Assembly: GCA_017510335.1 (NCBI GenBank)
Contig: JAFWNM010000016.1
Span: 1 to 64,000, forward strand
Direction of reading: 5' to 3'
Length of the DNA stretch: 64,000 bases
Source of the DNA: Paracoccaceae bacterium
GTDB lineage: Bacteria > Pseudomonadota > Alphaproteobacteria > Rhodobacterales > Rhodobacteraceae
Every line of letters begins with the position of its first letter. The stretch's first letter is position 1. Made by a program: the position numbers and the translations under genes. Of the stretch, positions 32,170 through 54,753 are shown in pieces. Under the pieces are notes generated by a model, which was given only the letters and a program-made list of their open reading frames with translations, searched no databases and was not told the DNA's origin.

Positions 32170-32240
32170 TGAATACATAGATATAGGATAATAGCAATAA
32201 AAATCAATTTTTCGCCTGAAACATAAGTTTCATGTATACA
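32170..32240. promoter_or_regulatory. Operator pair upstream of the metF-like gene
   Basis: GTTTCATGTATACA at 32227-32240 contains the palindrome TGTATACA and is the same 14-mer as at 53935-53948 and (reversed) at 53865-53878. A one-mismatch copy, TGAATACA, lies at 32170-32177. The stretch is AT-rich and holds the presumed promoter. Confidence 0.65.
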
Positions 32241-32248
32241 CGCCAGTG

Positions 32249-33001
32249 TTACCCGATCACCAGCCCCAGCGCCGCAAGTTGGGGACCTTGGGCCGTATGG
32301 ACTGCAAAAATCTGCTGGACATTGGCGCGGGCCGCGCCTGTGTGTTCGCGTGCCAATGCCTCGGCGCGGGTGCCTTGGCGTGCGGTGATCGCCTCGATCA
32401 TGGCGTGGTGTTGCGCATGGGCGGGCGCAAGTGTGGATACCAGCGCTTCTATCTGTGTCTTGTAGGGCAGGAATGCTGATGGTGCAGCAAAGGGCAGGCG
32501 CACCACACGCGCGATTTCTTCTTCAAGCACCTTGCTGCCGGCCAGTCTTGCCAATGCCAGATGAAAGGCGTCATTCAGTTGGGAATAGCTGTCAAGATCC
32601 GTGTCTTCGGGGTTTGCGTGAAAGCAGGAATCCAGCTGCCCCAACAGGCATTCGATTTTCGACATATGTTCGGGGCATGGGCCGCGTTCTGCTGCCAACC
32701 GTGCGGCAGTGCCTTCCAGAACGCCGCGCAGTTCGATCATGTCCAGCACATCGGCAACGGCAAAGCTGCGCACAACAAACCCGCCGGACCTTGTGCGCAC
32801 CAAAAGCCCTTCTTCGGCCAGCCGCGACAGGGCTTCGCGCACCGGGGTGCGCGAAACGGCCAGTTCTTCGGCAAGCGACACTTCATACAGGCGCGTTCCG
32901 CCGGGATAATCCCCGTTCAGGATTCGCTGGCGCAGGGCGATCTGCGCGCGCAGGGCGTGCGTGCGCGCGCCTTGCCGGTTTGACACTGTGCCATCCATCA
33001 C
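32249..33001 (-). CDS. GntR-family (FCD) regulator 1 of the aromatic island
   Basis: A 250-residue FadR-type regulator. The winged helix LRQRILNGDYPGGTRLYEVS then LAEELAVSRTPVREALSRLA is canonical, and an all-helical FCD ligand domain follows from LRGVLEGTAARLAAERG with metal-site histidines in NDAFHLALARL and PAHAQHHAMIEAI. It is a close paralogue of the regulator at 53960-54691. The metF-like gene lies downstream with the TGTATACA palindrome between them. An aromatic acid or its breakdown product is the probable effector. Confidence 0.88.
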   Translation of the reverse strand: MMDGTVSNRQGARTHALRAQIALRQRILNGDYPGGTRLYEVSLAEELAVSRTPVREALSRLAEEGLLVRTRSGGFVVRSFAVADVLDMIELRGVLEGTAARLAAERGPCPEHMSKIECLLGQLDSCFHANPEDTDLDSYSQLNDAFHLALARLAGSKVLEEEIARVVRLPFAAPSAFLPYKTQIEALVSTLAPAHAQHHAMIEAITARQGTRAEALAREHTGAARANVQQIFAVHTAQGPQLAALGLVIG

Positions 33002-33028
33002 GACCCCCTTTACCGGCTGGCGGTGAAC

Positions 33029-34573
33029 TTAGTCCTCTTGCTCGCGCCTGCGGCGGCGTGTGTCGTCATAGCGAATATCATCATGCACCCGTTCCAGCAG
33101 GCGGTTCAGGCCCGGTGCGTGGATGGTCTGTTCCAGAACTGATTCCAGTGCCTGCAACACAGCCCCGCGCGACCCTTCGACGGACCCCACTTGCGTGACG
33201 TTGATATTGCCGATCTTCTCAGCGGGCTTGACCATTTCCGCCACGATTTTGGGCATGGCTTCCAGTCGCGCCATCTCGGCCTCATGGGCGAGAGATTCCG
33301 GTGATCTGCTGTTTTCGGCCCTGATGCGCGCTTCCAGTGCTGTGGTTTCGGCGTGGCGCTGTTTCAGATGGGCCTGTGCGTCCAGATCTGCGGTTTCCAG
33401 CCTGTCGGCTGCGGTTTTGCGATTGGCGGCGGCCGCAATCTCGCTGCGGCGCGCTGCGGCCTCTGCCTCTGCCTCGGCGGCGATCAGCGACAACACACGG
33501 CGGCGATGGGCTTCGGCCTCGGCGCGGGCGGTTTCGACGGCTTCTTGCGCACGCACAGCATCCGCGCGCGCAAGATCGGCTTGGGCCATGGCGTGGCTTT
33601 CTTCCTGGCTTTTGTTGGCGACCATCACCGCGCGGTCCTGTTCTGCGATTTCCAGTGCGCGGGCGCGGGTGATTTCAGCTTCGCGGATGGCTTGTTCGCG
33701 GGCAATATCGGCGGCGCGAATGCCCTGTTCCATGTGAATTCGTGCTTCTGCGGCAGCGCGTTCGGCGTCTGCTTTCGCGCGGGCGACTTCTGCGATCTGG
33801 GCGGACATCAGCGCTTCGACCTGCTGGGCCTGTGCAATTTCGGCACGGCGTTCTTCCAGATCAATGTCCAGTTGGCGGCGGGCGGCTTCCATGGCGGCGC
33901 GGCGCACACTGACCTGGGTTTCGCCCTCAATCTCGGCGCGGTCGCGTTTGGACTGGGCGATCACTTGCGTCAGTTTGCGCAAACCTTCGGCGTTGAAGGC
34001 ATTGTTTTCGTCCAGCGCCGCAAAAGGTGTCTGGTCCAGTGCAGTCAGGGCAACCGCGTCCAGTTGCAGGCCATAACGGGTGACATGCGGGGCAATGGCA
34101 TCACGAATGGCACTTGCGAATTCGGCACGCGCTTCGTGCAGGTCGTCCATACTGGACCGCGCCGCCACAGCGCGCATGGCGTCAATGAACATACCTTCGA
34201 CAAGGGCGCGCAATTCTTCGGGCTGGAAGCTGCGGCGGCCAAGGGCCTGCGCCGCGCGGGCCACAGCGGCATCTTCGGGGGGAACCGACAAATAGAATTC
34301 CGCGCCCACATCAATGCGCAACCTGTCGCGGGTAATCAGGGCATGTTCGCCCGTGCGCTGCACATCCAGCCGGATGGACTGCATATTGACGCGCGCCACT
34401 TCGTGAAACCATGGCAGCGACAGCACGCCCCCTTCGATTACCACGCGCCGCCCGCCAATGCCGGTGCGCACCAGACTGACCGCGTTGCTGGCGCGTTCAT
34501 AGAAAGCAGCGGCCAGCGCCACCAGCGCGGCCACCACCACGATCAGTACGATGATCCAGAAAATAGTTGTCAT
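33029..34573 (-). CDS. Flotillin-like SPFH/band-7 membrane protein
   Basis: A 514-residue protein with one N-terminal membrane segment (FWIIVLIVVVAALVALAAAF), a band-7 domain over about residues 25-190, and a long Ala/Glu/Arg-rich coiled coil (about 210-430). That is the layout of flotillins of the YqiK type, which organise membrane microdomains. Flotillins are not usually part of aromatic operons; here it lies between the SDR gene and a GntR gene, all on the minus strand. It may help transporter assembly or solvent stress tolerance; this is speculation. Confidence 0.85.
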   Translation of the reverse strand: MTTIFWIIVLIVVVAALVALAAAFYERASNAVSLVRTGIGGRRVVIEGGVLSLPWFHEVARVNMQSIRLDVQRTGEHALITRDRLRIDVGAEFYLSVPPEDAAVARAAQALGRRSFQPEELRALVEGMFIDAMRAVAARSSMDDLHEARAEFASAIRDAIAPHVTRYGLQLDAVALTALDQTPFAALDENNAFNAEGLRKLTQVIAQSKRDRAEIEGETQVSVRRAAMEAARRQLDIDLEERRAEIAQAQQVEALMSAQIAEVARAKADAERAAAEARIHMEQGIRAADIAREQAIREAEITRARALEIAEQDRAVMVANKSQEESHAMAQADLARADAVRAQEAVETARAEAEAHRRRVLSLIAAEAEAEAAARRSEIAAAANRKTAADRLETADLDAQAHLKQRHAETTALEARIRAENSRSPESLAHEAEMARLEAMPKIVAEMVKPAEKIGNINVTQVGSVEGSRGAVLQALESVLEQTIHAPGLNRLLERVHDDIRYDDTRRRRREQED

Positions 34574-34606
34574 CCTCTTGGTCCTCTCTCGCCAGCGTCG
34601 CTTCTG

Positions 34607-35398
34607 TCAAAGCCCGTCCAGGCTGGTCATTATTCGGGCACAAAGCCCCCCGTCTGCGGCCAGATTGGCCCCTGCCAGTCCCTGTGACAGGTCCGACAGC
34701 AGAAATAGTGCCGCGCGTGCGGCGGTGTCCGTGCCTGATGCGGCATCCTGCCCGCCTTCGGCCACGATATCGGGCGGCAAGCGCCCGTCATGGCTGGCAG
34801 GGGTCAACGCGTTCAACCGGATGTTGCGGTCTGCCCAGCGGTTGCGCTGCGCCATAACCCACGCCTGCATGGCCCAGCCCGCTGTGCGGTCCGCGCGGTC
34901 GGGTTCGGCCAGAAGGCCCCAACGCGCGACAAACCCGCCCAGATCATCCCAGCGTAGCGCCATTGCAGCGCGCGTTTCGCCAAGTTTGGCGTGCCATGTC
35001 GAATGCGGCGGCGCAGCGCAGGCCAGCACGGCGGCCCCATGGGCCAGTTTGGGGGCAAGGGCCTGTGCCAGATGTCGCGGTGCCAGAAGCCTGCGCGCCA
35101 ATACCTGTTCAGGGCCGCCGGTTCCCGGATCGGCCAGAAGGGCCAGCGCGTCGATATCATCAGGCAAGGCTGCCGCTGCCGCATCAAGCGCGGCTGGATC
35201 GTGCAGGTCTGTATGATAAAGCGCGGCCAGCCCGTCAAACAGCTTGCGATCATCCACGCCCAGCACTTCGGCACCGGCGCATTCGGCGTGCAAGGCCACG
35301 GCCCGCCCCAAACCACTGCCAGAGCCAAGCACGACAACACGCTTGCCCGCAAGCAGCAGGGGCGGCACCATGGCAAGGCTGGATGACAGGTCTGCCAT
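34607..35398 (-). CDS. SDR-fold protein lacking the catalytic Tyr-Lys pair
   Basis: A 263-residue protein with a Rossmann fold: GSGSGLG at 25-31 is the GxxxGxG dinucleotide loop, and the later NIRLNALTP and a glycine-rich end match classical SDRs. The YxxxK motif is absent: the aligned stretch reads AGWAMQAW (about 173-180). It may bind a nucleotide without SDR-type redox chemistry, or use another mechanism. It starts 1 bp after the aldehyde dehydrogenase stop and belongs to the long minus-strand ABC operon. Confidence 0.72.
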   Translation of the reverse strand: MADLSSSLAMVPPLLLAGKRVVVLGSGSGLGRAVALHAECAGAEVLGVDDRKLFDGLAALYHTDLHDPAALDAAAAALPDDIDALALLADPGTGGPEQVLARRLLAPRHLAQALAPKLAHGAAVLACAAPPHSTWHAKLGETRAAMALRWDDLGGFVARWGLLAEPDRADRTAGWAMQAWVMAQRNRWADRNIRLNALTPASHDGRLPPDIVAEGGQDAASGTDTAARAALFLLSDLSQGLAGANLAADGGLCARIMTSLDGL

Positions 35399-35399
35399 A

Positions 35400-36872
35400 T
35401 CAGAACACCGGCGGGAACGGGCGGCCGCCACGGTCCAGCGTGATCCAGCGCGTTTCGGTGAATGTTTCAACCGACCAGCGCCCGCCATGCCGCCCCAGCC
35501 CCGACGCCTTGGACCCGCCAAAGGGCACATGCGGTTCATCATTCACCGATGAGCAATTCACATGGCACATGCCGGTTTCCAGACGCCGCGCAATGGACAG
35601 GGCGCGCGCTTCGTCCTTGGTCATGACACCGGCGGACAGGCCATATTCCGTATCGTTATTGATGGCGATGGCTTCTTCGTCGGTGCGGAACGGGATGACC
35701 GGCACAACCGGACCGAATGTTTCGTCCTGATAGATCAGCATGTCAGGGGTTACGCCTGTCAGGATGGTGGGTTCCACGAAGCGGCCCTTGACGCCGCCGC
35801 CGACAACAACCTGCGCGCCCTTGGCAATGGCGTCATCCAGCTGCGCCTTGACGCGGGCCACCTGCCGGTCGTTGATCAGCGGGCCGATGACATTGGACTT
35901 GTCTGCGGTATCGCCCACTTTCAGCTTCGCGGCGCGGGCGGCGAATTTTTCCAAGAATTCGTCAAAAATGCTTTCATGCACCAGCACTTTTTCCACGCTC
36001 ATGCAGATCTGGCCCTGATGCATGAAGCTGCCGAAATTGGCGGCCTGCGTGGCGCGTTCCATATCGGCATCTTCCAGCACGATCAGGCTGTCCTTGCCGC
36101 CCAGTTCCACACAGCATTTTTTCAGATGCGCGCCGGATTTCGCGGCAATCGCGCGGCCCACAGGCGTGGAGCCGGTAAAGGACACGCCCTTGACCAGCGG
36201 GTTTTCAATCATCTCGTCGCCCATTTCCGCAACCGTCTCGCGCGAACAGGTGATGACGTTGAACACACCTGCGGGAATGCCTGCTTCTTCCAGCACCTCG
36301 GCAAAGAACAGACCCCCAAGATAGGGTGTATCCTCGGACGGTTTGAGAACAATCGTATTGCCGGACGCAAGCGCGAAGGCAAAGCCGCGCGCCGTCAGGA
36401 TGCCGGGAAAGTTCCATGGGCTGATCACGGAAATCACCCCCATGGGGACACGCTGCGCGGTGGACAGTTTGCCGTATTCGCTGGGCATGATTTCGCCCGA
36501 TGCAGCATAGAGGATTGCCCCCGCCGAACGGAATACTTCGGGGATGTAATGCGCCTCAAACGCGCCCTTGCCATACCACCCGCCGCCTTCGGCCTGAATT
36601 GCGGCAATGAAATCGGGGGCGCGGCGTTCAAACACCTCGGCAATGCGGTGCATCAGCTTGGCGCGTTCGGTGTATTTGGTGGCGGCCCAGTCCGGGAATG
36701 CCTTATGCGCAGCCTCAATCGCGGCGCGGGCGTCTGCGCGCGTGCCGTCGGGCGCTTCGGCCCACAGGCTGCCGTCATTGGGGTTCAGGTCGGCGAAGTT
36801 GCGCGCCGCCTTGACCCACTGGCCGCCGATATACATTCCGCGCAGGGTTTTGGGGTGTTTCGCATCAAGCAT
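35400..36872 (-). CDS. Aldehyde dehydrogenase, vanillin/benzaldehyde dehydrogenase-like
   Basis: A 490-residue ALDH of the type active on aromatic aldehydes (benzaldehyde/vanillin dehydrogenase-like). Cofactor motif SFTGSTPVGRAIAA, general base Glu256 in CVELGGKDS and nucleophile Cys290 in QGQICMSVEK are intact. The start at 36872 (MLDAKHPKTLRGMYIGGQWV) has GGAGAG upstream. It is followed by the SDR after 1 bp and preceded by livF after 1 bp. In the proposed pathway it makes the methoxybenzoate that the LigM-type enzyme demethylates. Confidence 0.85.
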   Translation of the reverse strand: MLDAKHPKTLRGMYIGGQWVKAARNFADLNPNDGSLWAEAPDGTRADARAAIEAAHKAFPDWAATKYTERAKLMHRIAEVFERRAPDFIAAIQAEGGGWYGKGAFEAHYIPEVFRSAGAILYAASGEIMPSEYGKLSTAQRVPMGVISVISPWNFPGILTARGFAFALASGNTIVLKPSEDTPYLGGLFFAEVLEEAGIPAGVFNVITCSRETVAEMGDEMIENPLVKGVSFTGSTPVGRAIAAKSGAHLKKCCVELGGKDSLIVLEDADMERATQAANFGSFMHQGQICMSVEKVLVHESIFDEFLEKFAARAAKLKVGDTADKSNVIGPLINDRQVARVKAQLDDAIAKGAQVVVGGGVKGRFVEPTILTGVTPDMLIYQDETFGPVVPVIPFRTDEEAIAINNDTEYGLSAGVMTKDEARALSIARRLETGMCHVNCSSVNDEPHVPFGGSKASGLGRHGGRWSVETFTETRWITLDRGGRPFPPVF

Positions 36873-36873
36873 G

Positions 36874-38088
36874 TTATCTCTCCGTGCGATCGAATTGTGA
36901 TGATCCGGGGCGGCGGCGGTAGATGTCCACCTTGCCGCCCGGTGCGGGACTGTGGTGTGCGGGTTGCGATGCCACAGCGGTGGTCGGCGCGGCCGCGCTG
37001 CGCGCTGGCATGGACGACAGGCGCGATGTGGGCCGCAGCGGGGGCAATGTGCTTTGCGTGCCGGTGTCGGGTGCGCGTGCGGCGCGCGCTGCGTCCTCCA
37101 TCTCGGACAGCAGTTTGCGCAGTGGGTCAGATGTGGATTTGCCGCTTTTGGCAGGTTCGGGCCTGGCCGGCTGGCGGGCAGCGCTGACGGCTGCATGGCG
37201 CGCGGGCTGCGATTGCTGCGTGGCGCGTGACACCAGCGCGGTAATATCCAGCCCTGACACCTGCGCTGCCGATTGCGTGCTTGCCGCTTTTTGCCGGACA
37301 GTGACCGCAGGGGGGGCGACACGCGCGGGGGGCGCGGCAGGTTTGGCCGCTTGGGCTGGTGCAGCTTTGGATGCGCCACCGCCCAGATAGGCCGCCTGAA
37401 CAGCCGGATCGTTGCGCAGCACATCCGCGCGATCTTCGCGCAGAATTTCGCCGTTTTCGATCAGGTAGCCACGGTCCGCAATCCCAAGGCTAAGGCGGGC
37501 ATTCTGTTCCACCAGCAAAATGCCAAGCCCCGCTTCGCGTACGGCCTTCAGGTTCTGGAACAATTCCTTGGACAATAGCGGTGACAACCCAAGTGACGGT
37601 TCGTCCAGCATCAGGATTGTCGGGTTCGACATCATCGCGCGGCCAATGGCGACCATCTGCTGTTCGCCCCCTGACATGGTGCGCACAGTTTGCCCCGCGC
37701 GTTCCGCCAGCTTCGGGAACAGGTCGATCAGGCGGTCGTAATTGGCCTGCGCATCTTCGCGGGCGCGGTTCGGGTTTGCGCCCAGCATCAGGTTTTCGCG
37801 CACGCTCAGGTCACCGAACACGCCGCGCCCTTCGGGCACCAGCGCCACGCCGCGTTCCACCACCTTATGCGGCGGCAGGCCCAGCAGGTTTTCGCCGTTC
37901 ATGGTCATGGCGCCGGTGACCGCGCCTTCGCAAATGCCGGCGATGGATTTCAGAACCGTGGATTTGCCCGCACCATTCGCGCCAAGAATGACGACAATTT
38001 CCCCCGGTTTCATGGACAGGTTGACCCCGTCCAGCGCGCGGTGTTTGCCATAGGTGACACTTAGGCCATGCAGTTCAAGCATCTTCAT
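36874..38088 (-). CDS. livF: Branched-chain-type ABC transporter ATPase LivF with long C-terminal tail
   Basis: ATPase of a HAAT importer. Residues 1-237 are a normal LivF: Walker A GANGAGKS (36-43), signature MSGGE (138-142), Walker B LMLDEPSLGLS, and VEQNARLSLGIADRGYLIENG. The remaining 167 residues (238-404) are low-complexity, rich in Ala, Pro, Ser and Arg, which LivF proteins normally lack. No frameshift is needed to explain it: the reading frame stays open up to the next gene. It overlaps livG by 14 bp; ATG 38082 is an alternative start. Confidence 0.88.
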   Translation of the reverse strand: MKMLELHGLSVTYGKHRALDGVNLSMKPGEIVVILGANGAGKSTVLKSIAGICEGAVTGAMTMNGENLLGLPPHKVVERGVALVPEGRGVFGDLSVRENLMLGANPNRAREDAQANYDRLIDLFPKLAERAGQTVRTMSGGEQQMVAIGRAMMSNPTILMLDEPSLGLSPLLSKELFQNLKAVREAGLGILLVEQNARLSLGIADRGYLIENGEILREDRADVLRNDPAVQAAYLGGGASKAAPAQAAKPAAPPARVAPPAVTVRQKAASTQSAAQVSGLDITALVSRATQQSQPARHAAVSAARQPARPEPAKSGKSTSDPLRKLLSEMEDAARAARAPDTGTQSTLPPLRPTSRLSSMPARSAAAPTTAVASQPAHHSPAPGGKVDIYRRRPGSSQFDRTER

Positions 38089-38809
38089 CAGCCCCCAGAT
38101 AGGCGCGGATGACATCGGCATCCGACAAGACATCGGCGGGCGTGCCCTCGGCGATTCTGGTGCCAGATGACATGACCACGCAGCGGTCGCACAAGCTGCG
38201 GATGGCGTCCATGACATGTTCCACCAAAATGACGGTGCGCCCGTCATCGCGCAAGGACCGGATCAGGTCGATGCCGGTTTGCAATTCGGTGGGGTTCAAG
38301 CCGGCCAGCCATTCATCCAGCAACAAAACTTCCGGTTCGCAGGCCAGCGCGCGCGCCAGTTCCACCCGTTTGGTGTTGATATAGGTCAGCGACGACACCG
38401 GCACATTCATGACAGCCCCAAGGCCCACACGTTCCAGAAGGGTGCGGGCATAGCGTTCTGCCTCGCCCGTCCAGCGGCGGCGGTGGCCGAATGCGGCCCC
38501 TGCCACGACATTTTCAATGACAGTCAGTTCCGGCAAAAGGCGCACCAGCTGGAAGGTGCGCGCAACCCCCATTTGCGCAATGCGATGCGCGGGTTTGCCC
38601 GCCACGTCCTGCCCATTCAGCCGGATCATTCCCGCGCTGGGCGGAAATGTCCCCGAAATCATGTTGATCATCGTGGATTTACCTGACCCGTTCGGGCCGA
38701 TGATGCCCAGAACCTCATGCTCTGCGACATCGAAGCTCATGTCATTCACGGCAACCAGCCCGCCGAAGCGTTTGGTCACATTGCGCACTTCCAAAACGAC
38801 GCGTGCCAT
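38075..38809 (-). CDS. livG: Branched-chain-type ABC transporter ATPase LivG
   Basis: A 244-residue ATPase, partner of LivF. Walker A GPNGSGKST and Walker B LLLDEWLAGLNP are present, and the C-terminal LVEHVMDAIRSLCDRCVVM is typical of LivG. The signature LSYGQ is changed to LTYINTKRVELARAL, so the complementary site should be degenerate. The C-terminal tail overlaps the livF start. Confidence 0.9.
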   Translation of the reverse strand: MARVVLEVRNVTKRFGGLVAVNDMSFDVAEHEVLGIIGPNGSGKSTMINMISGTFPPSAGMIRLNGQDVAGKPAHRIAQMGVARTFQLVRLLPELTVIENVVAGAAFGHRRRWTGEAERYARTLLERVGLGAVMNVPVSSLTYINTKRVELARALACEPEVLLLDEWLAGLNPTELQTGIDLIRSLRDDGRTVILVEHVMDAIRSLCDRCVVMSSGTRIAEGTPADVLSDADVIRAYLGADEDA

Positions 38810-39736
38810 TCAATGCCCCCCTTGCCCGAACCGGCGTTTTAACCGCGCCTGAAGGCCCACAACCCCGCCCGGCAGCACATAAACGATCAGCAAGAATGCC
38901 AGACCCAACAGCAACAGCGTTTGGTTGGGGGCGTGGCGTGATATGAATTCCCACAGCAGTGTGAACGGAATCACCCCCGCAAGCGGCCCCCAAAGCCGCC
39001 CCGTTCCCCCCAGAAGCGCCATGATCACCACCTGAAACGACAGGATCGGCGCAAAGGCTGTGGAAGGTTCGATATAGATGTATCGTGGTGCCAGCATAGC
39101 CCCCACTGTGGCCGCCGCGGCGCCCGACACCATGAACAGCAGCACCTTGGCCAGCGCCGTGTTGATGCCCGAATGCTTGGCCACAGTTTCGTCATTGCCG
39201 ATGATGCGCAGCGCGAACCCCAGCCGCGACCGCCCGATCAGCCAGCCCACCAGAAACACCAGCGCCGCCATGCCCAGCAACTGCCAGTAAATGTCGCGTT
39301 CGGTAATCGATGTCAGGACATACATGCCGCGCTGGCCAGTGCGGTTCTGCACCCATGTGACCAACTGGCGCACCAGTTCCGCAAGGCCCAGCGTGAAGAT
39401 CACGAAATACACCCCTGACAGGCGCAGCGTGACCATACCGACCAGTCCCGCCAGCCCCGCGCCCAGCACAGCGGCAATCACTGGCAGCGACCAATAGGGC
39501 ATTGTCTGGAACCCGTAGCCTGTCACAAAAGTGCCAAGCCCGAAAAACGCCGCCGTCGCCAATGAGATGTAATGCGTAGGCCCCGAAAACAGCGCCCAGC
39601 TGGTTGCTAGCACCGTAAACATGGCCATGGTTGTGGCAATCGACAGAATATAGCCGGTGTCATAGAAGGGCAGCAATGCCACCACCCCGAAGGCCAGCGC
39701 GGACAGGATCAGGTTTCGGATTTCGCGCGTGCTCAT
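38810..39736 (-). CDS. livM: Branched-chain-type ABC transporter permease LivM
   Basis: A 308-residue inner-membrane permease with about eight hydrophobic segments and the LivM motif RLGFALRIIGNDETVAKHSGINT that couples to the ATPases. Its start overlaps the livH stop by 4 bp and its stop adjoins livG. Together with LivH it forms the channel. Confidence 0.92.
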   Translation of the reverse strand: MSTREIRNLILSALAFGVVALLPFYDTGYILSIATTMAMFTVLATSWALFSGPTHYISLATAAFFGLGTFVTGYGFQTMPYWSLPVIAAVLGAGLAGLVGMVTLRLSGVYFVIFTLGLAELVRQLVTWVQNRTGQRGMYVLTSITERDIYWQLLGMAALVFLVGWLIGRSRLGFALRIIGNDETVAKHSGINTALAKVLLFMVSGAAAATVGAMLAPRYIYIEPSTAFAPILSFQVVIMALLGGTGRLWGPLAGVIPFTLLWEFISRHAPNQTLLLLGLAFLLIVYVLPGGVVGLQARLKRRFGQGGH

Positions 39737-40602
39737 GTTGGTTTCTTTCCGAACAGGCCTTGGGGGCGGAACAGCAGCACACCCAGAAACAGGACATAGG
39801 CGGCCGCCAGCGTCAGGCCGGGGTCGATGACGCGCGCCACGAATGTTTCCGCAATACCCAGTATCAGCGCGGCGACGATTGTGCCGCGAATATCGCCCAC
39901 ACCGCCCATAATGACGATGATTAGGGCCTTCATCGTGAACAACACACCGACGGATGCATCCAGTGTGAAGAACATCGAAATCAGCGCCCCGCCGGTTGCC
40001 GTGACAGCCCCGCCCAACCCGAAGGCCAGCGCGGATACTGCCGTGACATCAATGCCCACCAGCCGCGCAGATTCCGGGCTGACCGCGACTGCGCGCAGGC
40101 GTAGACCGGCGCGCGTATAGCTTAGCCACAGCCACAGCCCTGCCGCGATAAGGGATGCGATGCTGAAGGCCACAACACGGTTTTGCCCGTAGGATGATCC
40201 GAAGATATCCACGCGTTGCGCAAGGTAGGAATAGTTGAAATAACCGCCCCCGAACATCCAGCTCATGATGCCGACCAGAGCAAAAGACAGCCCGAACGTG
40301 GCCAGAATACTGTCGACTTCCAATGCTCCGCGCGATTTTGCACGCTTGACCAACGGGCGCAGCATGATCCGGTAAATCAGCCAGTTCACCACAAACGCCA
40401 CTGGCGCCACCACAATCAGCGCGGCAATCGGGCTGACCTGACCGGCAGTATAGACCCAGAATGCGGCAAACCCACCGGCAACCAGCATTTCGCCATTAGC
40501 CAGGTTCATGATGCGGGCAACGCCATATTGCAGGTTCAGCCCCATCGCAATTAAAGCATAGGTTCCGCCCAGCAACAGGCCGGTTATCAGGATGAAAAAC
40601 AT
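39733..40602 (-). CDS. livH: Branched-chain-type ABC transporter permease LivH
   Basis: A 289-residue permease with about eight membrane segments. The LivH hallmarks GLLLGGTYALIAMGLNLQYG near the N-terminus and RAVAVSPESARLVGIDVTAVS in the coupling loop are present. It follows the substrate-binding protein gene after a stable intercistronic hairpin. Confidence 0.93.
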   Translation of the reverse strand: MFFILITGLLLGGTYALIAMGLNLQYGVARIMNLANGEMLVAGGFAAFWVYTAGQVSPIAALIVVAPVAFVVNWLIYRIMLRPLVKRAKSRGALEVDSILATFGLSFALVGIMSWMFGGGYFNYSYLAQRVDIFGSSYGQNRVVAFSIASLIAAGLWLWLSYTRAGLRLRAVAVSPESARLVGIDVTAVSALAFGLGGAVTATGGALISMFFTLDASVGVLFTMKALIIVIMGGVGDIRGTIVAALILGIAETFVARVIDPGLTLAAAYVLFLGVLLFRPQGLFGKKPT

Positions 40603-40637
40603 TCTTGTTCCATTCGCGACATGTCAGGCAGTGGGCA

Positions 40638-40657
40638 GGGGGCGCAGATGCGCCCCC
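40638..40657 (-). promoter_or_regulatory. Intercistronic hairpin between the binding-protein gene and livH
   Basis: GGGGGCGCA and TGCGCCCCC are separated by two bases, a very stable stem with no T run. It probably lowers or stabilises expression so that the binding protein exceeds the permeases. Confidence 0.65.
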
Positions 40658-40675
40658 GCCGCGTGGGCCGGTCTA

Positions 40676-41884
40676 TCAGTCCCAGCCGTCTTTCAGGACG
40701 ATATCGGACACCCCGTCACGCCCGCGCGCGGCAACCCCGCGGAAAACGCCGTCCTGCCATTGGCCGACAGTCCAGTAGCGTTCATTGTCGTTCATGTCGT
40801 TGAACTGCACAGGGCCAAGCACGGTTTCATAGGTGTTGGAATTGTCCTGCAGGTATTCCATGACCACAGCGCGGTCCTTGGACCCTGTGGCCTCGATTGC
40901 CTGACCAAGGATTTCAAGCGTGGCATAGGTTGACGCAGATGCCCAGAAATCCGGTCCTTGCCCACTTAGGTCCTGATGTGCGGCTGCGAAGGCCGCAAAG
41001 GCGGTGTCATCAGGGTTTACGCCGCCCATGCCCATGACGCCTTCGGCTTGTTGGCCAAAGCGCCCGTAATAGGACGGAAACGCAGTTGCCACAGCCGTAA
41101 AGAAGACTGACGGCGCGAAGTCCTGCACGATGGCTTGATCGGTCAGCGCGAAGGTATCGCCGGGATAGGACCAAGCGATGAACGCATCAGGGTTGGCGGC
41201 CTTGGCCCCGTCGATGATGGGCGCAATGTCCTGCGTGCCCAGCGGGTAGGAGGTTTGATAGACAATCTCGAAACCGTTGTCTTCCAGAACCGCGCGGGAA
41301 ATGCCGGCCATTTCAATGCCGAAAGCATCGGCCACATTGACCAGGGCGACGCGGTTGCCAATGTCACCGGATTCGCGCAGGTCAACCAGAACCTGGGCGG
41401 TATCTTCAGCCATTACGCCAGTGCGGCCCAGCACGAAGAACATGCCGGGAAATTGCGCCGACAGTTCCGGTTGCTGGTTGGTCACATTGGTGCCGGTGAT
41501 CTGCGGATAGCCAAGCTGGCTGAAAATCGGCGCTGCGGCAAGGTTCAGACCCGTCGAATAGGGCGCGACCATGAAATCCACACGGTCCTGTGTTGCCAGA
41601 CGTTGTGCAGCCTGAATGGCCTGTTGCGGATTGGTCTGGTCGTCATATTCGATCAGTTCAATCAGCGCGGGACCATCAGCAAGCTGCAGACCGCCCGCTT
41701 CGTTGGTCTGGTGCACCCACAGGCGCACGGCGGGCCAATGCGTGACATCTGCACCACCCGCAAGCGGGCCGGTTTTTGGCGCGGCGGCACCAAATTTGAT
41801 AACATCCTGGGCAGATGCGGCCCCAAGACTGCCCATAACCACCGCAAGCGCGGCAACTGTTGTCATCAGTGATCTGCGTTTCAT
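40676..41884 (-). CDS. Branched-chain-type ABC transporter substrate-binding protein, probable aromatic acid binder
   Basis: A 402-residue periplasmic LivJ-fold protein. The N-terminus MKRRSLMTTVAALAVVMGSL ending ASAQ is a Sec signal. The mature part shows IKFGAAAPKTGPLAGGA, NEAGGLQ and DQTNPQQAIQAAQRLATQDRV, typical of HAAT binders. CAGGGAGGAGCAAAC precedes the ATG. Proteins of this class often bind aromatic acids in soil and marine bacteria; the operon's aldehyde dehydrogenase supports that, but the ligand is unproven. It is the first gene of a long minus-strand operon. Confidence 0.88.
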   Translation of the reverse strand: MKRRSLMTTVAALAVVMGSLGAASAQDVIKFGAAAPKTGPLAGGADVTHWPAVRLWVHQTNEAGGLQLADGPALIELIEYDDQTNPQQAIQAAQRLATQDRVDFMVAPYSTGLNLAAAPIFSQLGYPQITGTNVTNQQPELSAQFPGMFFVLGRTGVMAEDTAQVLVDLRESGDIGNRVALVNVADAFGIEMAGISRAVLEDNGFEIVYQTSYPLGTQDIAPIIDGAKAANPDAFIAWSYPGDTFALTDQAIVQDFAPSVFFTAVATAFPSYYGRFGQQAEGVMGMGGVNPDDTAFAAFAAAHQDLSGQGPDFWASASTYATLEILGQAIEATGSKDRAVVMEYLQDNSNTYETVLGPVQFNDMNDNERYWTVGQWQDGVFRGVAARGRDGVSDIVLKDGWD

Positions 41885-42005
41885 GTTTGCTCCTCCCTGA
41901 AACATGGCACTTCTTTCCTTAAGCGGTCGATGGCGATTTGCTTTCGACCCCCCCTGCCGACTGGCCCGTGGGCCAGTCGCTTCTGAACGTCCTCCAGTCC
42001 AAATA

Positions 42006-42013
42006 TGTATACA
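42006..42013. promoter_or_regulatory. TGTATACA operator upstream of the ABC operon
   Basis: The palindrome TGTATACA lies 122 bp before the binding-protein start. A related ATGTACACAT dyad is at about 42068-42077. Both lie in the AT-rich 216-bp gap between the TRAP and ABC genes. Confidence 0.6.
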
Positions 42014-42100
42014 AGATGCACTATTAAATGATGCAATCAACCCTTATACGCAATAATTCCTGCGCCTATGTACACATAAATCGTCTGAAGTTCCGGTATA

Positions 42101-44964: not shown

Positions 44965-45113
44965 GATTTCCTCCCTCTGTGGCCGCGACACCCGATAAGT
45001 TATCTGGGCGGTGGCGCCATGTCGATGTATGCATATGTAGTTGCGAATTTCAAATATAGCGAGATAGTATGGTTATTGATTTCACTATATGGTCATAACC
45101 TTTGCGCAATATG
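44965..45113. promoter_or_regulatory. AT-rich promoter of the TRAP operon with candidate operators
   Basis: GGTTAT (45071-45076) and ATAACC (45095-45100) form an interrupted dyad suited to a LysR protein, whose gene lies just beyond. TGTATGCA (45026-45033) is a one-base variant of the island palindrome TGTATACA and may bring in GntR control. Confidence 0.45.
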
Positions 45114-50149: not shown

Positions 50150-50470
50150 TCAGGTGACGGACAAGGGCATGATGCGGTCGGCGCGGAATGTGTCGGCAAG
50201 GCGCGTGAGGGTGATGTTCTGGACCACACCGCCGACGAAAAACGGGTCGCCTTCGGCAAAAGCCCGGGCATTCGCTTCGCTATCGGCCTGCAAGATGCCG
50301 AAATTGCCAATGCCCTGCCCGGCGTCATCCCAAAGCGCACTGCCGGTCAGCACCACCGCCAAACCGTCACCGCCAGTGCCAACCCAATCCCTGTGCTTGG
50401 GGCGCAATGTGTCGCGCATTGCTGCGGTCGCGTGACCGTCATGGTGTTTGCAGACCATCAGAAAGAACAT
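50150..50470 (-). CDS. YCII-related small protein linked to LigAB
   Basis: A 106-residue alpha-beta-barrel protein of the YciI/muconolactone-isomerase-like fold. RPKHRDWV holds the family His and EANARAFAEGDPFFVGGVVQ the Asp. Its start shares a base with the ligB stop, so it is translated with the dioxygenase. A hydrolytic or isomerising step on the ring-cleavage product is plausible but not shown. Confidence 0.8.
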   Translation of the reverse strand: MFFLMVCKHHDGHATAAMRDTLRPKHRDWVGTGGDGLAVVLTGSALWDDAGQGIGNFGILQADSEANARAFAEGDPFFVGGVVQNITLTRLADTFRADRIMPLSVT

Positions 50471-51312
50471 CAGCGGCTATTCTCCAGCAACACCATGCCC
50501 GCGCCTGTCATGGACGCGGGTGCGAAGTAATGGTCATGAAGGGTGGCGACGGTTTCATCCATGCAACCGCGCATGACCAGCCACATGATAAGTTCCGCCC
50601 CTTCGGACCCGAATTCCTGAACATAATCTTCGCGTGACATGCTGCGGTAGCGCTCGGGGTCCGACCCGATGCGCGCAATCCACTCGCGGTCGGCGGTCGG
50701 ATTGATGAACCCTGCGCGCGCGCCCTGCAACTGGTGCGACAATCCGCCTGTGCCCATGACAAGGACCTTCTCATCGGTAGGGTAGCTTTCAATGGCGCGG
50801 CGCAGCAGGCGCCCCAGATCCCACATGCGTTGTGGTGTGGGAATCGGATATTGGATCGTGTTGATCAGAATAGGCACAACCTTGACGGGCCACGCGTCTG
50901 GCCGGCCAAAAACAAGTTCCATCGGAACCTGTAGCCCGTGGTCAACGTCCAGTTCACGACAGATCAGCGGGTCAAAATGCCCTTCGACCATGCAATCGGC
51001 CAAGTGCCAGGAAAAACCATCAGCGCCCTGAAAATCGGGGACAGGACGCGGCCCCCACCCTTCATCCGCAGGGCGGTAAGTGTCCGCCACGCCAAGCGCC
51101 AGCGTCGGCACGCGGTCCAGAAAGAAGGAATTTCCATGATCGTTATAGATAACCACCGCGATGTCGGGTTTGCGGTCCGCAACCCATTTTTGCGCCGGGA
51201 TATAGCCATCAAAAAACGGCTTCCATTCGTCGCTGTTGCGCAACCCTTTATCCAGCGCCGCCGCGATGGACGGAACATGGCTGGTGCCCAGCCCTGCAAG
51301 CAGTTCAGCCAT
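50470..51312 (-). CDS. ligB: Protocatechuate 4,5-dioxygenase beta subunit-like (LigB) extradiol dioxygenase
   Basis: A 280-residue class III extradiol dioxygenase, catalytic subunit. The Fe(II) ligands are recognisable as His12 (GTSHVPSI), His59 (YNDHGNSFF) and Glu240 (GAELIMW), and the catalytic His lies in GGLSHQLQG. The substrate should be a catecholic acid: protocatechuate, gallate or 3-O-methylgallate. It overlaps ligA by 8 bp. No ligC, ligI, ligJ or ligK is seen in the window. Confidence 0.92.
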   Translation of the reverse strand: MAELLAGLGTSHVPSIAAALDKGLRNSDEWKPFFDGYIPAQKWVADRKPDIAVVIYNDHGNSFFLDRVPTLALGVADTYRPADEGWGPRPVPDFQGADGFSWHLADCMVEGHFDPLICRELDVDHGLQVPMELVFGRPDAWPVKVVPILINTIQYPIPTPQRMWDLGRLLRRAIESYPTDEKVLVMGTGGLSHQLQGARAGFINPTADREWIARIGSDPERYRSMSREDYVQEFGSEGAELIMWLVMRGCMDETVATLHDHYFAPASMTGAGMVLLENSR

Positions 51313-51655
51313 TTGTCACTTTCCCCAGCCGTGTGTCCAGAAATTCCTGCAGGCCCATACCCGCCTGTGCGGCCCCGATTTCACGAATAGGGGTCGGGTC
51401 CACAGCCGAAATTTTCAGAATGTAAAACAAGTTGCCGCCCAGCCGCACCATTTCGGCCCAGTCACGGGTTTTCACGGCCATGCGTTGCTCTGGCGTTAGG
51501 GCGTAGCGGTCCAGATAGGCATCTTCATCCGCGATGAACGCCGCGCGCCCGTCAGGCGTGCTTAGGCCCATCGCCATCTTGTTCAGGGCATAGCCCCCAT
51601 TCGCGCGCGCGCGGTCGAACAGCGGGGTATCAGGAATGCGGTCGGCATCGGTCAT
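51305..51655 (-). CDS. ligA: Protocatechuate 4,5-dioxygenase alpha subunit-like (LigA)
   Basis: A 116-residue small all-helical subunit that caps the LigB active site. The pattern ALNKMAMGLSTPDGRAAFIA followed by YALTPEQRMAVKTRDWAEMV and GGNLFYILKISAV is typical of the LigA family. ATG 51655 is chosen since it overlaps the hydrolase stop in TGATG and the longer frame runs into that gene. Confidence 0.9.
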   Translation of the reverse strand: MTDADRIPDTPLFDRARANGGYALNKMAMGLSTPDGRAAFIADEDAYLDRYALTPEQRMAVKTRDWAEMVRLGGNLFYILKISAVDPTPIREIGAAQAGMGLQEFLDTRLGKVTNG

Positions 51656-52386
51656 CAGGTGGCCTTTTGTAAGTCTGGGGTCAAGCTGCGCACCCAACCG
51701 GCCAGCAATCCGGCTACGGCTGCGGGCTGTTCTACGGGTGCGAAATGGCCCGCATCTTCAATGATTTCCAGCCGCGCTTGCGGGCAAAGCTGCGCAATCG
51801 CTTCATGCTGTGCAATGGGCGACCACTGGTCCTGCCGCCCGACAATCAACAGCATTGGTCCGCCATACGCGCCGATTGTTGCACTGGCATCAGGGCGGTT
51901 CAGCAGCGCCCGCATCTGGCGTTCGTGAATTTCAGGTGTCATGCCACAAACCATGTGCGTCAATCCATCCAGCACGGACGGGTCGGGCGTCAGACCTTCG
52001 GCCATCATGCCGGGCAACCACGCTTTGGCCAGCCCGTTCATACCCTGCGCATAGGCCAGATCGATCATGGCCTGGCGTTTTGCGTCCTCGCCATCCTTGC
52101 GGGGGTGTATGCCGGTGTTCAAAAGCGCCATGGCGCGAATGCGGTCGGGGGCCATATGGGCCATTTCCATGGCAACACGGCCCCCCATGGAATGGCCGAC
52201 AACCACCAAGGGACCATCATGGCGGGCCAGCAGGTCGCGCGCCATGTCGGGAATGCTGGTCTGCATGGTGACATCGGCCACTGTTACGGGCAGATCATCC
52301 AGCGCGGTCAGTGCCGCGTCCCAGACATGGGCATCACAAATAAGGCCCGGTATCAACAGGATTCGGGTCATAGGCAGTCCAGTCAT
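51655..52386 (-). CDS. Alpha/beta hydrolase, possibly a ring-fission lactonase or esterase
   Basis: A 243-residue alpha/beta hydrolase with an apparently complete triad: Ser in GHSMGG, Asp in GRQDQWSP and His in AGHFAPVEQP. The oxyanion-strand LLIPGLICDAHVWD is typical. Placed between the demethylase and ligA in one transcript, it could open a lactone such as 2-pyrone-4,6-dicarboxylate, or cleave a methyl ester. MTR at 52371 is an alternative start. Confidence 0.83.
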   Translation of the reverse strand: MTGLPMTRILLIPGLICDAHVWDAALTALDDLPVTVADVTMQTSIPDMARDLLARHDGPLVVVGHSMGGRVAMEMAHMAPDRIRAMALLNTGIHPRKDGEDAKRQAMIDLAYAQGMNGLAKAWLPGMMAEGLTPDPSVLDGLTHMVCGMTPEIHERQMRALLNRPDASATIGAYGGPMLLIVGRQDQWSPIAQHEAIAQLCPQARLEIIEDAGHFAPVEQPAAVAGLLAGWVRSLTPDLQKAT

Positions 52387-52434: not shown

Positions 52435-53841
52435 TCAGCTGCTTTTGGAACGCCAGCTGTCGGCGTAGTTTTCGCGCGCTTCGCTTGCATATGGTGTGGG
52501 CGACACGCGCACACGAATTTCCGTTTGCTTGTGTGCCTCGGTCGAGGTTTTGCCCGTTGTTTCCGGCTCGCCCCATTTCATGGTCAGCACGTCGCCAACC
52601 TGCACCGACTGGTCCACCACACCAAGGCTAAGCACACAGCGTTCGTTGAAGCTGTAGCCGTTGAACATGGACATACCCACCATCTTGTCGCCATGCATGA
52701 CCATATCGGCGCTGGACGATGCGTAGTTTGGCTGCGGGAAGTCGATCCATTTGAAAGGCGTGCCCTGTTCAAACGCGGATGCGATGACTTTCAGCACGTC
52801 TTCGCGGTTCCATTCAAACGTGACTTTCTTGCGGTTGGATGCCGACCCCTTCATCGCTTCCAATGCGGATTTGCCGATGAAATCCGGCTTCTTCCAACCG
52901 ATGTAGAAATCATAGCCCAATTCGAACGGGTTGACGTAGTAATCTTCGATATTGTCGGAAACGAAGCTGCCCCCGATTGCGCCGGATGCTTCATAGCTGT
53001 CAGCGCCCAGCCAGTCGCGGTAATCTGCCAGCATGCCGTCACCTGTGTAGATGCCCGGCAATGGCGACGGAATCCAGCCGGATTCCAGTGTGTTGGTGGA
53101 ATAGGCGCGGCTGCCGCATTGCACCAGATCAACGCCCGCATCGCGCGCAGCTTGCAGAATGGTGGAATGGATGTAATCCTTGTCCTTGTAAGGACCCCAG
53201 ATTTCCAGACCCGGCGCGCCCGACATGCCATGGCGCAGCGCTTGCACTTTTTTCGATCCGACATTGATCCAGTCAACATGGAAGAACTTGATGTCCTGAA
53301 CCGGCCCGCCATTCATTTTTTCAAAGATCTTCGGCGCGTCTGGCCCTTGAATCTGGAAGCGGTAATGTTCGCGCAACACGCGTTCACCTTCGGGGCGCGA
53401 CGGGCTGCGCGGGTCATAGCGCAGGCGCACATTCCAGTTGCCATGTGCGGCGCAGAACATCAGCCAGTTCGATGTCGGCGCGCGGCCAACAAGGATGTAT
53501 TTGTCTTCACGCTCGCGGAAAATGATGTGGTCGCCAATGACATGGCCATTGGGCGTGACCGGAACATAGTGTTTTGCACGGTTCAGGTCAAAATTGGCAA
53601 AGCTGTTGATGCCGTGATGGGACAGGAATTCGGTTGCCTGCGGCCCTTCGACAATCACTTCGTCCATGTGGTGGCTTTGGTCAAACAGCACGGCCGACTT
53701 GCGCCACGCTTCCTGTTCTACCCGCCAGTTGGAAAATTCGGGCGCAACGACGGGGTAGACATACATCCCGATTTTGGAGTTGCGCAGCATTTGCACCGGA
53801 TTACCGGCAGCCGCCATTTTGGTTGCAAGGCTTTGTGTCAT
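52435..53841 (-). CDS. ligM: Tetrahydrofolate-dependent aryl O-demethylase, LigM-type
   Basis: A 468-residue GcvT-fold enzyme that moves an aryl methyl group to tetrahydrofolate. It has the LigM/DesA hallmarks: MLRNSKIGMYVYPVVAPEFS, AVLFDQSHHMDEVIV, YVPVTPNGHVIGDHIIF, and SRAYSTNTLESGWIPSPLP followed by ASGAIGGSFVSDNIEDYYVN. The pattern differs from DmdA and GcvT itself. The substrate is likely vanillate, 3-O-methylgallate or syringate, giving protocatechuate or gallate for LigAB downstream. ATG 53841 has GGGAGGA upstream; the frame to 53862 covers the operator. Confidence 0.9.
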   Translation of the reverse strand: MTQSLATKMAAAGNPVQMLRNSKIGMYVYPVVAPEFSNWRVEQEAWRKSAVLFDQSHHMDEVIVEGPQATEFLSHHGINSFANFDLNRAKHYVPVTPNGHVIGDHIIFREREDKYILVGRAPTSNWLMFCAAHGNWNVRLRYDPRSPSRPEGERVLREHYRFQIQGPDAPKIFEKMNGGPVQDIKFFHVDWINVGSKKVQALRHGMSGAPGLEIWGPYKDKDYIHSTILQAARDAGVDLVQCGSRAYSTNTLESGWIPSPLPGIYTGDGMLADYRDWLGADSYEASGAIGGSFVSDNIEDYYVNPFELGYDFYIGWKKPDFIGKSALEAMKGSASNRKKVTFEWNREDVLKVIASAFEQGTPFKWIDFPQPNYASSSADMVMHGDKMVGMSMFNGYSFNERCVLSLGVVDQSVQVGDVLTMKWGEPETTGKTSTEAHKQTEIRVRVSPTPYASEARENYADSWRSKSS

Positions 53842-53864
53842 CTGAAATCCTCCCAGAAGCATGA

Positions 53865-53948
53865 TGTATACATGAAACTAGAGAATATGACGCAATATGC
53901 AAGTCAAAACCGCGAGTGCGGCTGTGGTTTTCACGTTTCATGTATACA
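53865..53948. promoter_or_regulatory. Two TGTATACA operators upstream of the ligM-type gene
   Basis: TGTATACA occurs at 53865-53872 and 53941-53948, centres 76 bp apart, each within GTTTCATGTATACA (the first in reversed orientation). A candidate -35 box, TTGACT, is at 53902-53907 on the minus strand. The first site would then cover the transcription start and the second lies upstream. Confidence 0.7.
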
Positions 53949-53959
53949 GCAAGCGGGGG

Positions 53960-54691
53960 TTAGCTGGACAAAAGCGCCAGACTGGGCACCCCTTCGCGCA
54001 GTGCGGCTTCTTGCGAAAGCAGGTATTCCACGTTTCGGCGCGCTGCGCGGGCATGTTCGCGCGCTAGTGATTCGGCGCGCCCGCTTTCGCGGTGCGTGAT
54101 CGCGTCGATAATCGCGCGGTGCTGGTCTTGTGCAGATCCAAGCGTTTTTTGCAGGGCTTCTATGCGGGTGTGGTCATCCAGAAACGCCGAGGGGGAGGCG
54201 AAAGGCAATGCTGTTACCCGTGCGATTTCGCGCTGTAGAATGTCGCTGCCGCTCATTCGCGCAAGAAGCGAATGGAATTCGCTGTTAAGCGCAGAATAGG
54301 TATCCAGATCAATAAGTTGATCTAGAACAACCCGGTCAATCCCACGCAAGATTTCCTGCGCGTGGTTCAGCAGTGCCGCATCCACACCGCGTTCGGCGGC
54401 ATAGCGCGCGGCGGTTCCTTCCAGAACCCCGCGCAAATCGATTGTGTCGACAACGTCTGCCAGTTTGAAACTGCGCACTACAAACCCGCCCCCCTTGGCG
54501 CGGTCCAGCAATGTTTCTTCTGCAAGCTGCGACAGCGCCGCCCGGATGGGGGTGCGCGAAATGGCCAGTTCTTCCGCCAGCACAACTTCGAACAAGCGGG
54601 TGCCGCCGGGTAATTGCCCGCTAAGAATGCGCTGGCGCAGTGTGATTAGGGCGCGCTGGGCATGCGTTGATGTGCCGGTCTGTGCGTCCAT
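53960..54691 (-). CDS. GntR-family (FCD) regulator 2 of the aromatic island
   Basis: A 243-residue FadR-type regulator, paralogous to the one at 32249-33001. The wing segments LRQRILSGQLPGGTRLFEVV and LAEELAISRTPIRAALSQLA, then GGFVVRSFKLADVVDTIDLR GVLEGT, are nearly the same in both. Its FCD domain has the NSEFHSLLARM and QDQHRAIIDAI histidines. It lies upstream of ligM in the same direction, with operators on both sides, so it probably represses the lig cluster and itself. Confidence 0.88.
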   Translation of the reverse strand: MDAQTGTSTHAQRALITLRQRILSGQLPGGTRLFEVVLAEELAISRTPIRAALSQLAEETLLDRAKGGGFVVRSFKLADVVDTIDLRGVLEGTAARYAAERGVDAALLNHAQEILRGIDRVVLDQLIDLDTYSALNSEFHSLLARMSGSDILQREIARVTALPFASPSAFLDDHTRIEALQKTLGSAQDQHRAIIDAITHRESGRAESLAREHARAARRNVEYLLSQEAALREGVPSLALLSS

Positions 54692-54708
54692 TCCTTACAC
54701 CCCTATTG

Positions 54709-54753
54709 CGTATACATGCCTGTTCTGCTGTGCGATGCATTCATGTATACATG
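54709..54753. promoter_or_regulatory. Operators upstream of GntR regulator 2
   Basis: CGTATACA (54709-54716) is one mismatch from the island motif, and CATGTATACATG (54742-54753) is a perfect 12-bp palindrome containing TGTATACA. This arrangement suggests autoregulation. Confidence 0.6.

Follow-up and report, generated by a model that had tools for sequence, protein, structure and literature searches.

What reads the short palindromes scattered through the aromatic island of a Paracoccaceae bacterium, and which genes do they control? The stretch analysed here (the window) is 64,000 nucleotides long, positions 1 to 64,000 of contig JAFWNM010000016.1 in assembly GCA_017510335.1, with a base composition of 59.4% GC. 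Its island encodes a metF-like reductase, a ligM-type O-demethylase, an ABC and a TRAP transporter and two GntR regulators, gntR1 and gntR2. A first-pass annotation, made from the letters alone, had proposed that the 8-mer TGTATACA marks a regulon across this island and that the two FCD GntR proteins are its readers. Here we describe these sites, their placement, their conservation, their co-occurrence with regulator and ligM, and their helical phasing. The explanation that fits best, and very probably the right one given the sequence comparisons below, is that the palindromes are operators of tetrameric FCD/VanR-group GntR repressors of the Atu1419 type, released by a folate signal.

Atu1419 of Agrobacterium fabrum is described in the passages of PMC7797058 used here as a tetrameric FCD/VanR-group repressor that binds the operator ATGTATACAT in crystals and gel shifts. 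A change of G3/C8 in the site costs it binding. Its targets are a metF-type gene, a ligM-type demethylase gene and its own gene, and N5,N10-methylenetetrahydrofolate lifts the repression; its structures are PDB 6z74, 6za0, 6za3, 6za7 and 6zab (PMC7797058).

The palindromes and their candidate readers

We took TGTATACA as the island 8-mer and ATGTATACAT as the full 10-mer site. Scanning the window returned five exact 8-mers, at 32233, 42006, 53865, 53941 and 54744, just where the first-pass annotation had placed them, and its rough estimate of less than one copy by chance agrees with 100 dinucleotide shuffles, in which 0.14 copies were expected per window and none of which gave five. Exact and one-mismatch sites together number 16, against 7.07 expected. 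The 11 one-mismatch sites include the three already listed and eight that had been overlooked. Of these eight, 42069 (TGTACACA) is intergenic and part of the pattern, and six fall within open reading frames (ORFs) of the mechanical ORF list. The eighth, 46474-46481 (TGTATATA), lies in the divergent lysR/tauE gap. A longer GTTTCATGTATACA, said to be common to three copies, does occur three times in the window (two on the plus strand, one on the minus); we dropped it as a motif, as the metF site is without it in the three relatives shown.

Copies elsewhere in the genome, on which the fate of the regulon proposal had been staked, give no clean answer for the 8-mer, which by itself is not rare. 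The whole 3.61-Mb genome contains 23 exact TGTATACA copies, 18 of them outside the island, as against 27 for a reversed control, though 5 of the 23 are concentrated in 22.5 kb. By contrast, ATGTATACAT with at most one mismatch occurs at 35 sites (control, 13), eight of them in the island. We applied one ORF caller to island and elsewhere alike, with a codon score trained on window genes rather than a published gene finder. By this caller 7 of the 8 island 10-mers are intergenic, or all eight with the later metF start. Among the 27 elsewhere, 19 are inside ORFs and 50 bp or more away from the chosen start, five sit at an ORF edge or less than 50 bp from a chosen start (for three of them the ATG contained in the site is itself that start), and three are intergenic. 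The 8-mer as the mark of a genome-wide regulon was thus rejected, with 18 exact copies off the island and 19 of the 27 outside 10-mers well within ORFs; so were two perfect 10-mers elsewhere as targets (C28:1761 and C35:72589), both within ORFs. Judged by placement, the clear targets appear to be those in the island, and a few of the eight intergenic or near-start sites elsewhere could be further ones. Possible further targets with one-mismatch 10-mers in gaps or at a gene edge are L131 (G000:C42:104399), L121 (G000:C23:863) and L021 (G000:C1:93814).

Both gntR1 (32249..33001, minus strand) and gntR2 (53960..54691, minus strand) encode FCD/VanR-group regulators, with a GntR winged helix-turn-helix and an FCD domain by Pfam, and both are closest to Atu1419. 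Its structure 6z74 is the best PDB match for gntR2 (E=3.7e-73) and gntR1 (E=5.5e-70), ahead by about 170 bits or more, and identity to Atu1419 is 52% for gntR1 and 54% for gntR2. In a three-way alignment, the DNA contacts Glu34, Arg45, Thr46, Arg49 and Gly66 are all present in gntR2 and four of the five in gntR1 (Ser66), and ligand-contact residues are kept at 7 of 9 positions in gntR2 and 8 of 9 in gntR1. The four zinc ligands (Asn137, His141, His192, His214) are complete in both proteins, and 12 of 14 named dimer-contact residues are identical in each. Of the 21 FCD matches in the genome, gntR1 and gntR2 itself are the only ones to reach E<=1e-40 against gntR2; the closest relatives of gntR2 come from Roseinatronobacter and other Rhodobacteraceae. 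A quick tree of 95 regulators, with 41 of its 92 inner branches drawn open, put gntR1 (4 rows) and gntR2 (16 rows) in separate clades of a 35-row group that includes Atu1419 (Shimodaira-Hasegawa-like approximate likelihood ratio test, SH-aLRT, 97). With the two genes in separate clades, a recent tandem duplication of gntR was rejected.

The proposal that FCD GntR proteins read the regulon is thus strongly supported: their nearest characterised relative binds ATGTATACAT before genes of matching types, and within the genus the sites accompany the regulator, as set out below. gntR1 is probably a second repressor on these operators beside gntR2, and we infer that each of the two proteins would bind each site.

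Operators promoter by promoter and across the genus

The first-pass annotation had put its sites in gaps upstream of the metF-like gene, livJ, dctP, ligM and gntR2. All listed sites are indeed upstream of these genes; one of them, the metF proximal operator (ATGAATACAT, one mismatch, 32169..32178), falls inside the metF frame if a TTG start at 32197 is used. It lies 63 bp from the distal metF operator (ATGTATACAC, 32232..32241). At related loci the proximal 10-mer is identical (L083, L085) or reads ATGTATTCAC on the gene's strand (L081), the distal site is exact ATGTATACAT in all three, and the pair is spaced 62-64 bp at all nine genus metF loci examined, the window included.

Upstream of livJ the first operator (ATGTATACAA, 42005..42014), conserved in L081, L083 and L085, is followed 63 bp away by a second (ATGTACACAT, 42068..42077) that the first-pass annotation missed. 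We rejected a reading of this second site as non-conserved: the 10-mer filter misses TGTGTACA, and the 8-mer scan finds that form in the three relatives, at a distance from the first site of 62 bp in L081 and of 64 bp in both L083 and L085. The dctP promoter has a single operator (ATGTATGCAT, 45025..45034), identical in L081, L084 and L201; in the window, in L081 and in L084 the 200 bp examined contain no partner at two or fewer mismatches.

At ligM the proximal operator (ATGTATACAT, 53864..53873) is exact in all 12 genus ligM upstreams examined (window included), and each has a partner 65 or 74-76 bp away, here at 76 bp (ATGTATACAG, 53940..53949). The gntR2 pair consists of a proximal site with two mismatches in the 10-mer (GCGTATACAT, 54708..54717) and an exact distal one (ATGTATACAT, 54743..54752), 35 bp apart. 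In the other 11 genus gntR2 upstreams examined, the proximal position holds a site within one mismatch of the 8-mer and the distal position a site at 35-36 bp, and gntR2 is probably autorepressed. No site was found in the 400 bp directly upstream of gntR1; the livJ site could act on gntR1 only through a single livJ-to-gntR1 operon, which gene order may indicate. Operators thus stand upstream of metF-like, own and ligM-like genes, two in the window being exact 10-mers and the others within two mismatches. The target units, all on the minus strand, are metF-ALDH1, livJ-gntR1, dctPQM, ligM-hydrolase-ligAB and gntR2.

We then asked how sites and regulator are distributed over 38 genomes of the genus, calling the regulator at E<=1e-40. 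It is present in 12, which hold 38 exact ATGTATACAT sites (2-5 each); the 26 genomes without it hold four in total, one each in four genomes and none in 22, and a reversed control gives four in all 38. A ligM gene at 90% identity or more is found in exactly the same 12 genomes, and one further genome, without the regulator, has a 52% relative. All but two of the 38 exact sites are upstream of metF, livJ, ligM or gntR2, the two being the in-ORF sites of the window genome. Three relatives (G149, G177, G182) have both regulators and the island genes, and their sites are placed alike; in G177 these are spread over two contigs. The livJ site is present in 4/4 genomes with gntR1 and 0/2 without it, and the dctP site in 4/4 with and 0/5 without. 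In five other genus genomes metF directly follows the flotillin gene, with no gntR1 between them, and the metF site pair is retained; gntR1 was therefore either lost there or inserted here, and is not needed for the metF operators.

Farther afield, some genera (L112, L116 and L118; also L109 and L114) have the regulator beside genes for a TRAP transporter, and the fetched stretch gave no ligM hit, hinting at the same regulator type serving other substrates. A sister regulator type (40-41% identical) lies beside a 29-30% LigM relative and has GTATAC-core pairs exactly 52 bp apart with other outer bases (L103:10796-10853, L199:3283-3340).

Spacing of operator pairs and the rival explanations

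Do operator pairs keep to whole turns of the helix? We examined 78 regulator upstreams, 63 from the family outside the genus and 15 from the class. The genus genomes were left out as close kin, and their 35-36 bp gntR2 pairs would lower the in-phase share. Sites were those within one mismatch of TGTATACA and within 260 bp of the inferred start; a turn was set at 10.5 bp, and a pair was called in phase when within 0.15 turn of a whole multiple. A pair is present in 48 of the 78 upstreams, and 41 of the 48 are in phase, with spacings clustering at 52-53, 62-64, 72-74, 83-85, 105, 116 and 136 bp. Some statistics use a 40-bp lower cut, which removes nine of the 48 pairs (2, 13, 14, 27, 31, 32, 35, 35 and 36 bp), and Rayleigh statistics for the phasing ignore common descent. 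Pairs with at most one mismatch in 16 were observed in 43 upstreams and arose in none over 200 rounds of a Markov null. When sites were cross-paired between loci, 0 of 20,000 rounds reached the observed phase concentration, both for the 47 pairs of at least 3 bp and for the 39 of at least 40 bp; since cross-pairing destroys the phase, distance to the gene does not set it. The peak at 10.5 bp persists in the 15 pairs of at least 40 bp that are left once the 62-64 bp group is taken out. Mapped on the tree, turn number requires 15 parsimony changes, yet all of the 39 pairs stay within 0.15 turn. Across the 18 pairs spaced exactly 63 bp, identity averages 32% in the intervening DNA and 94% in the sites, so that distance rather than sequence is conserved.

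A gene-blind scan for exact TGTATACA pairs 52-82 bp apart in 394 family genomes, 62 of them with the regulator, found 21 pairs, each in a different genome. All 21 genomes belong to the 62, and the 332 genomes without the regulator gave no pair; the reversed control gave four. Their spacings are 52 (two pairs), 62 (five), 63 (ten), 73 (two), 74 (one) and 76 bp (one). Twenty are within 0.15 turn, a limit that 10 of the 31 allowed spacings would satisfy by chance, and the sole off-phase pair is the window's own at ligM (76 bp). The scan is not an independent sample, as 18 of its 21 pairs were already in the set of 48. An exact TGTATACA-N44-74-TGTATACA pair, confined to regulator genomes (21/62 with, 0/332 without), may help in finding the regulon. 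One exact pair at 52-bp spacing (G778:C1:238840-238899) lies about 8.8 kb from that genome's regulator gene.

Two sites at whole-turn distances would suit a tetramer likely to bridge them, and electron microscopy has shown the Atu1419 tetramer looping a 190-bp pair, with two tetramers on one fragment also seen (PMC7797058). We regard as evenly poised between right and wrong the fuller proposal of a helical-phase code. One tetramer would clamp two 10-bp operators at 5-13 whole turns (mostly six), so that the promoter lies under a tiny DNA loop, and spacing would evolve in steps of roughly a turn. The lineage of the window has a second repressor of this type and, along with it, operators at the aromatic uptake systems, whereby uptake would answer to the one-carbon folate pool. 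The passages of PMC7797058 on spacing or phase (12 of 18 matching places) contain no helical phasing of sites. None was found for this family in the titles and abstract starts of the open-access literature searched, a search that most subscription papers fall outside. Double sites at a fairly constant distance are described for the FadR and HutC groups in the available parts of PMC4494728, where VanR, GTATAC and turns do not occur.

Several observations weigh against these readings. Seven of the 48 best pairs are off phase (2, 13, 14, 27, 35, 35 and 36 bp), and in 30 of the 78 upstreams the stretch examined contains no pair. Farther-off sites are present in some of the 30, of which those at 84 and 73 bp fit, those at 292, 293 and 313 bp are 0.1-0.2 turn off and those at 152 and 310 bp misfit. 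The A. fabrum distances of 190 and 109 bp (PMC7797058) are longer, and 109 bp is not a whole number of turns if measured centre to centre. The window's pairs fit in part, with metF and livJ at 63 bp (6.0 turns), ligM at 76 bp (7.24) and gntR2 at 35 bp (3.33); given the genus spacings of 65 or 74-76 bp at ligM and 35-36 bp at gntR2, the rule looks looser at these two promoters in the genus. The second tetramer interface is only about half kept (14/29 in gntR1, 16/29 in gntR2). Ligand-pocket residue 183 is changed in both window proteins and residue 175 in gntR2, so the effector could differ from that of Atu1419. The TRAP (dctP) site is single and imperfect, and gntR1 occurs together with the transporter sites in only four genomes; as these are closely related, the co-occurrence may reflect descent, or one evolutionary event, rather than function. 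Finally, eight sites of the genome outside the island are intergenic or close to an ORF start.

Class-level pairs also occur about 1 kb from the regulator gene, at L151:296-385, L157:3322-3400, L155:143-300 and L160:3059-3374; those of 84 and 73 bp are in phase, and those of 152 and 310 bp are not.

A competitor to bridging is that Atu1419-type operators are bound independently, one tetramer or dimer per site, with the whole-turn spacing arising from contacts with RNA polymerase or a neighbouring repressor. In the majority consensus of the 18 63-bp pairs, the proximal operator is immediately preceded by an ATTGAC-like element, with a TA near the expected -10 (by eye; several of the 18 are without the element), and the distal operator sits at a fixed distance upstream. 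We infer that the proximal operator would lie within the promoter spacer, a classical repressor position. This arrangement would suit independent binding, as would the two Atu1419 tetramers seen on one fragment (PMC7797058) and the off-phase 35-36 bp pairs at all 12 genus gntR2 upstreams examined. However, it is difficult to see direct contacts producing whole-turn classes over a range of 5-13 turns (52-136 bp), and the Atu1419 tetramer has been observed looping 190 bp (PMC7797058). We think independent binding probably wrong, and bridging is our preferred reading of the pairs.

A second alternative concerns the signal: the repressor might be released by an aromatic substrate such as vanillate or syringate, or by a ring-cleavage product, instead of by methylenetetrahydrofolate. 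DesR, the ligM regulator of Sphingobium sp. SYK-6, responds to vanillate and syringate (MarR family; PMC6888825), and the pocket differences at 183 and 175 point the same way. On the other side, both proteins keep the four zinc ligands and the citrate-contacting Arg86, Tyr133, Asn137, His141, Ser169, His214 and Asn221, and a metF-type gene carries the site pair at all nine genus loci examined. We consider aromatic release unlikely. N5,N10-methylenetetrahydrofolate is, by analogy with Atu1419, the likely signal, and vanillate, syringate and ring-cleavage products figure solely as tests that the first-pass annotation had proposed.

That the sites belong to another binder, either the neighbouring LysR or one of the genome's other 19 FCD proteins, is very improbable. 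The number of FCD matches (21) and the LysR gene adjoining the TRAP operon leave room for it, but sites lie beside gntR2-type genes also where some 20 kb of sequence includes neither the LysR gene nor the TRAP genes of the island (for example L036 and L095; stretches rather than whole genomes), and 0 of the 26 regulator-free genus genomes have more than one exact site. Chance or a compositional artefact, for which the 18 exact 8-mers elsewhere and a genome total of 23 no higher than the reversed control of 27 could be cited, is refuted by conservation across genera and is hardly credible given 0.14 copies expected per window and the co-occurrence with the regulator.

Island genes, proposed mechanism and comparison with known systems

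Apart from the two regulators, the target units consist of catabolic and uptake genes, all on the minus strand. The metF-like gene (31247..32143) matches a 5,10-methylenetetrahydrofolate reductase (PDB 7xg9, E=1e-45), though NCBIfam TIGR00676 scores just 26.9 bits (cut-off 293.7) and no Pfam match was found at 0.001; its start codon was picked by eye, in a frame open from 32197 (TTG). Downstream in the same direction is the aldehyde dehydrogenase gene ALDH1 (29738..31201, Pfam PF00171), an order kept at the genus loci L081, L083, L085 and L137-L141. The ABC unit (33029..41883) comprises a flotillin-like gene, a short-chain dehydrogenase/reductase (SDR) gene, ALDH2 and livF, G, M, H and J, read from livJ onwards and with gntR1 following the unit, and the livJ-to-flotillin order is the same in L081, L083 and L085. 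The TRAP genes dctP-dctQ-dctM occupy 42101..44964 (Pfam DctP, DctQ, DctM). The ligM-type gene (52435..53841), for a tetrahydrofolate-dependent vanillate/3-O-methylgallate O-demethylase, scores 636.7 bits with NCBIfam NF047885 (cut-off 580) and matches two distinct PDB LigM chains (5tl4 and 5x1i, E about 4e-164); ligB, ligA (about 51313-51660) and an alpha/beta hydrolase gene follow it (50470..52386; LigB PF02900, LigA PF07746, Abhydrolase).

Within the catabolic operon, the flotillin/SPFH-domain gene (33029-34573; Pfam Flot, Band_7) adjoins metF in five genus genomes where gntR1 is missing. The SDR (34607-35542) resembles coniferyl-alcohol dehydrogenases, below cut-off, and its position beside an aldehyde dehydrogenase suggests monolignol side-chain oxidation. 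Taken together, the target genes fit uptake and O-demethylation of lignin-derived methoxy-aromatics.

The mechanism that we propose takes binding, repression, effector and tetramer over from the A. fabrum work. Without substrate, repressor on the operators would keep the metF-ALDH1, ligM-ligAB, gntR2, TRAP and ABC-gntR1 units shut. LigM would O-demethylate a methoxylated aromatic acid, passing the methyl groups to tetrahydrofolate; the MetF-like enzyme would convert methyltetrahydrofolate to N5,N10-methylenetetrahydrofolate, which would release the repressor. Induction would then come from a one-carbon by-product rather than from the aromatic itself. One tetramer may hold two operators at once, including those only 63 bp apart. 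In the window's lineage the two uptake systems would likewise answer to demethylation if gntR1 reads the transporter sites, and the two proteins may either share the sites or divide them. The motif thus becomes a defined regulon with a candidate signal, in which a lignin-monomer pathway is possibly switched by a folate by-product, and the site-pair rule makes operator bridging by a tetrameric FCD repressor simply testable.

Among known systems, the GntR1/GntR2 pair of Corynebacterium glutamicum likewise places two GntR-type regulators on one pathway, but there it controls gluconate and glucose genes, and redundancy is reported, according to the parts of PMC2230225 drawn on here. DesR is a ligM repressor, and ligM in that organism is in an operon with metF; in contrast to the window's proteins, both GntR/FCD by Pfam, it is of the MarR family, with another inverted repeat and with vanillate and syringate as effectors (PMC6888825). 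BusR of Streptococcus agalactiae is a tetrameric GntR protein that requires two sites on one DNA face, where a 5-bp insertion abolishes binding (PMC8517857). It differs in having an RCK_C domain, cyclic di-AMP as ligand and a single gap, fixed at 22 bp by a coiled coil; DNA whose middle segment is 10 bp shorter goes unrecognised (PMC8517857). The window proteins have an FCD domain, and their sites occur at several spacings. Several whole-turn spacings in Atu1419-type pairs would suit a DNA loop rather than a rigid ruler as in BusR.

The closest likeness is to Atu1419 itself, with which the island shares the ATGTATACAT operator, metF-like, self and ligM-like targets, regulators 52% and 54% identical to it, and two sites per region (PMC7797058). 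It differs in having two regulators instead of one, in operators also at the ABC and TRAP operons, and in pair spacing, which is 190 and 109 bp in A. fabrum (PMC7797058) versus mostly 62-64 bp across the family. Because Atu1419 is already published, the kind of system is known, regulator, operator and effector included, and by its sequence the island reads as an Atu1419-type regulon. What is new, neither point having been found in the literature searched, is a second regulator with operators at ABC and TRAP operons, in four genomes, and the whole-turn spacing of operator pairs throughout the family.

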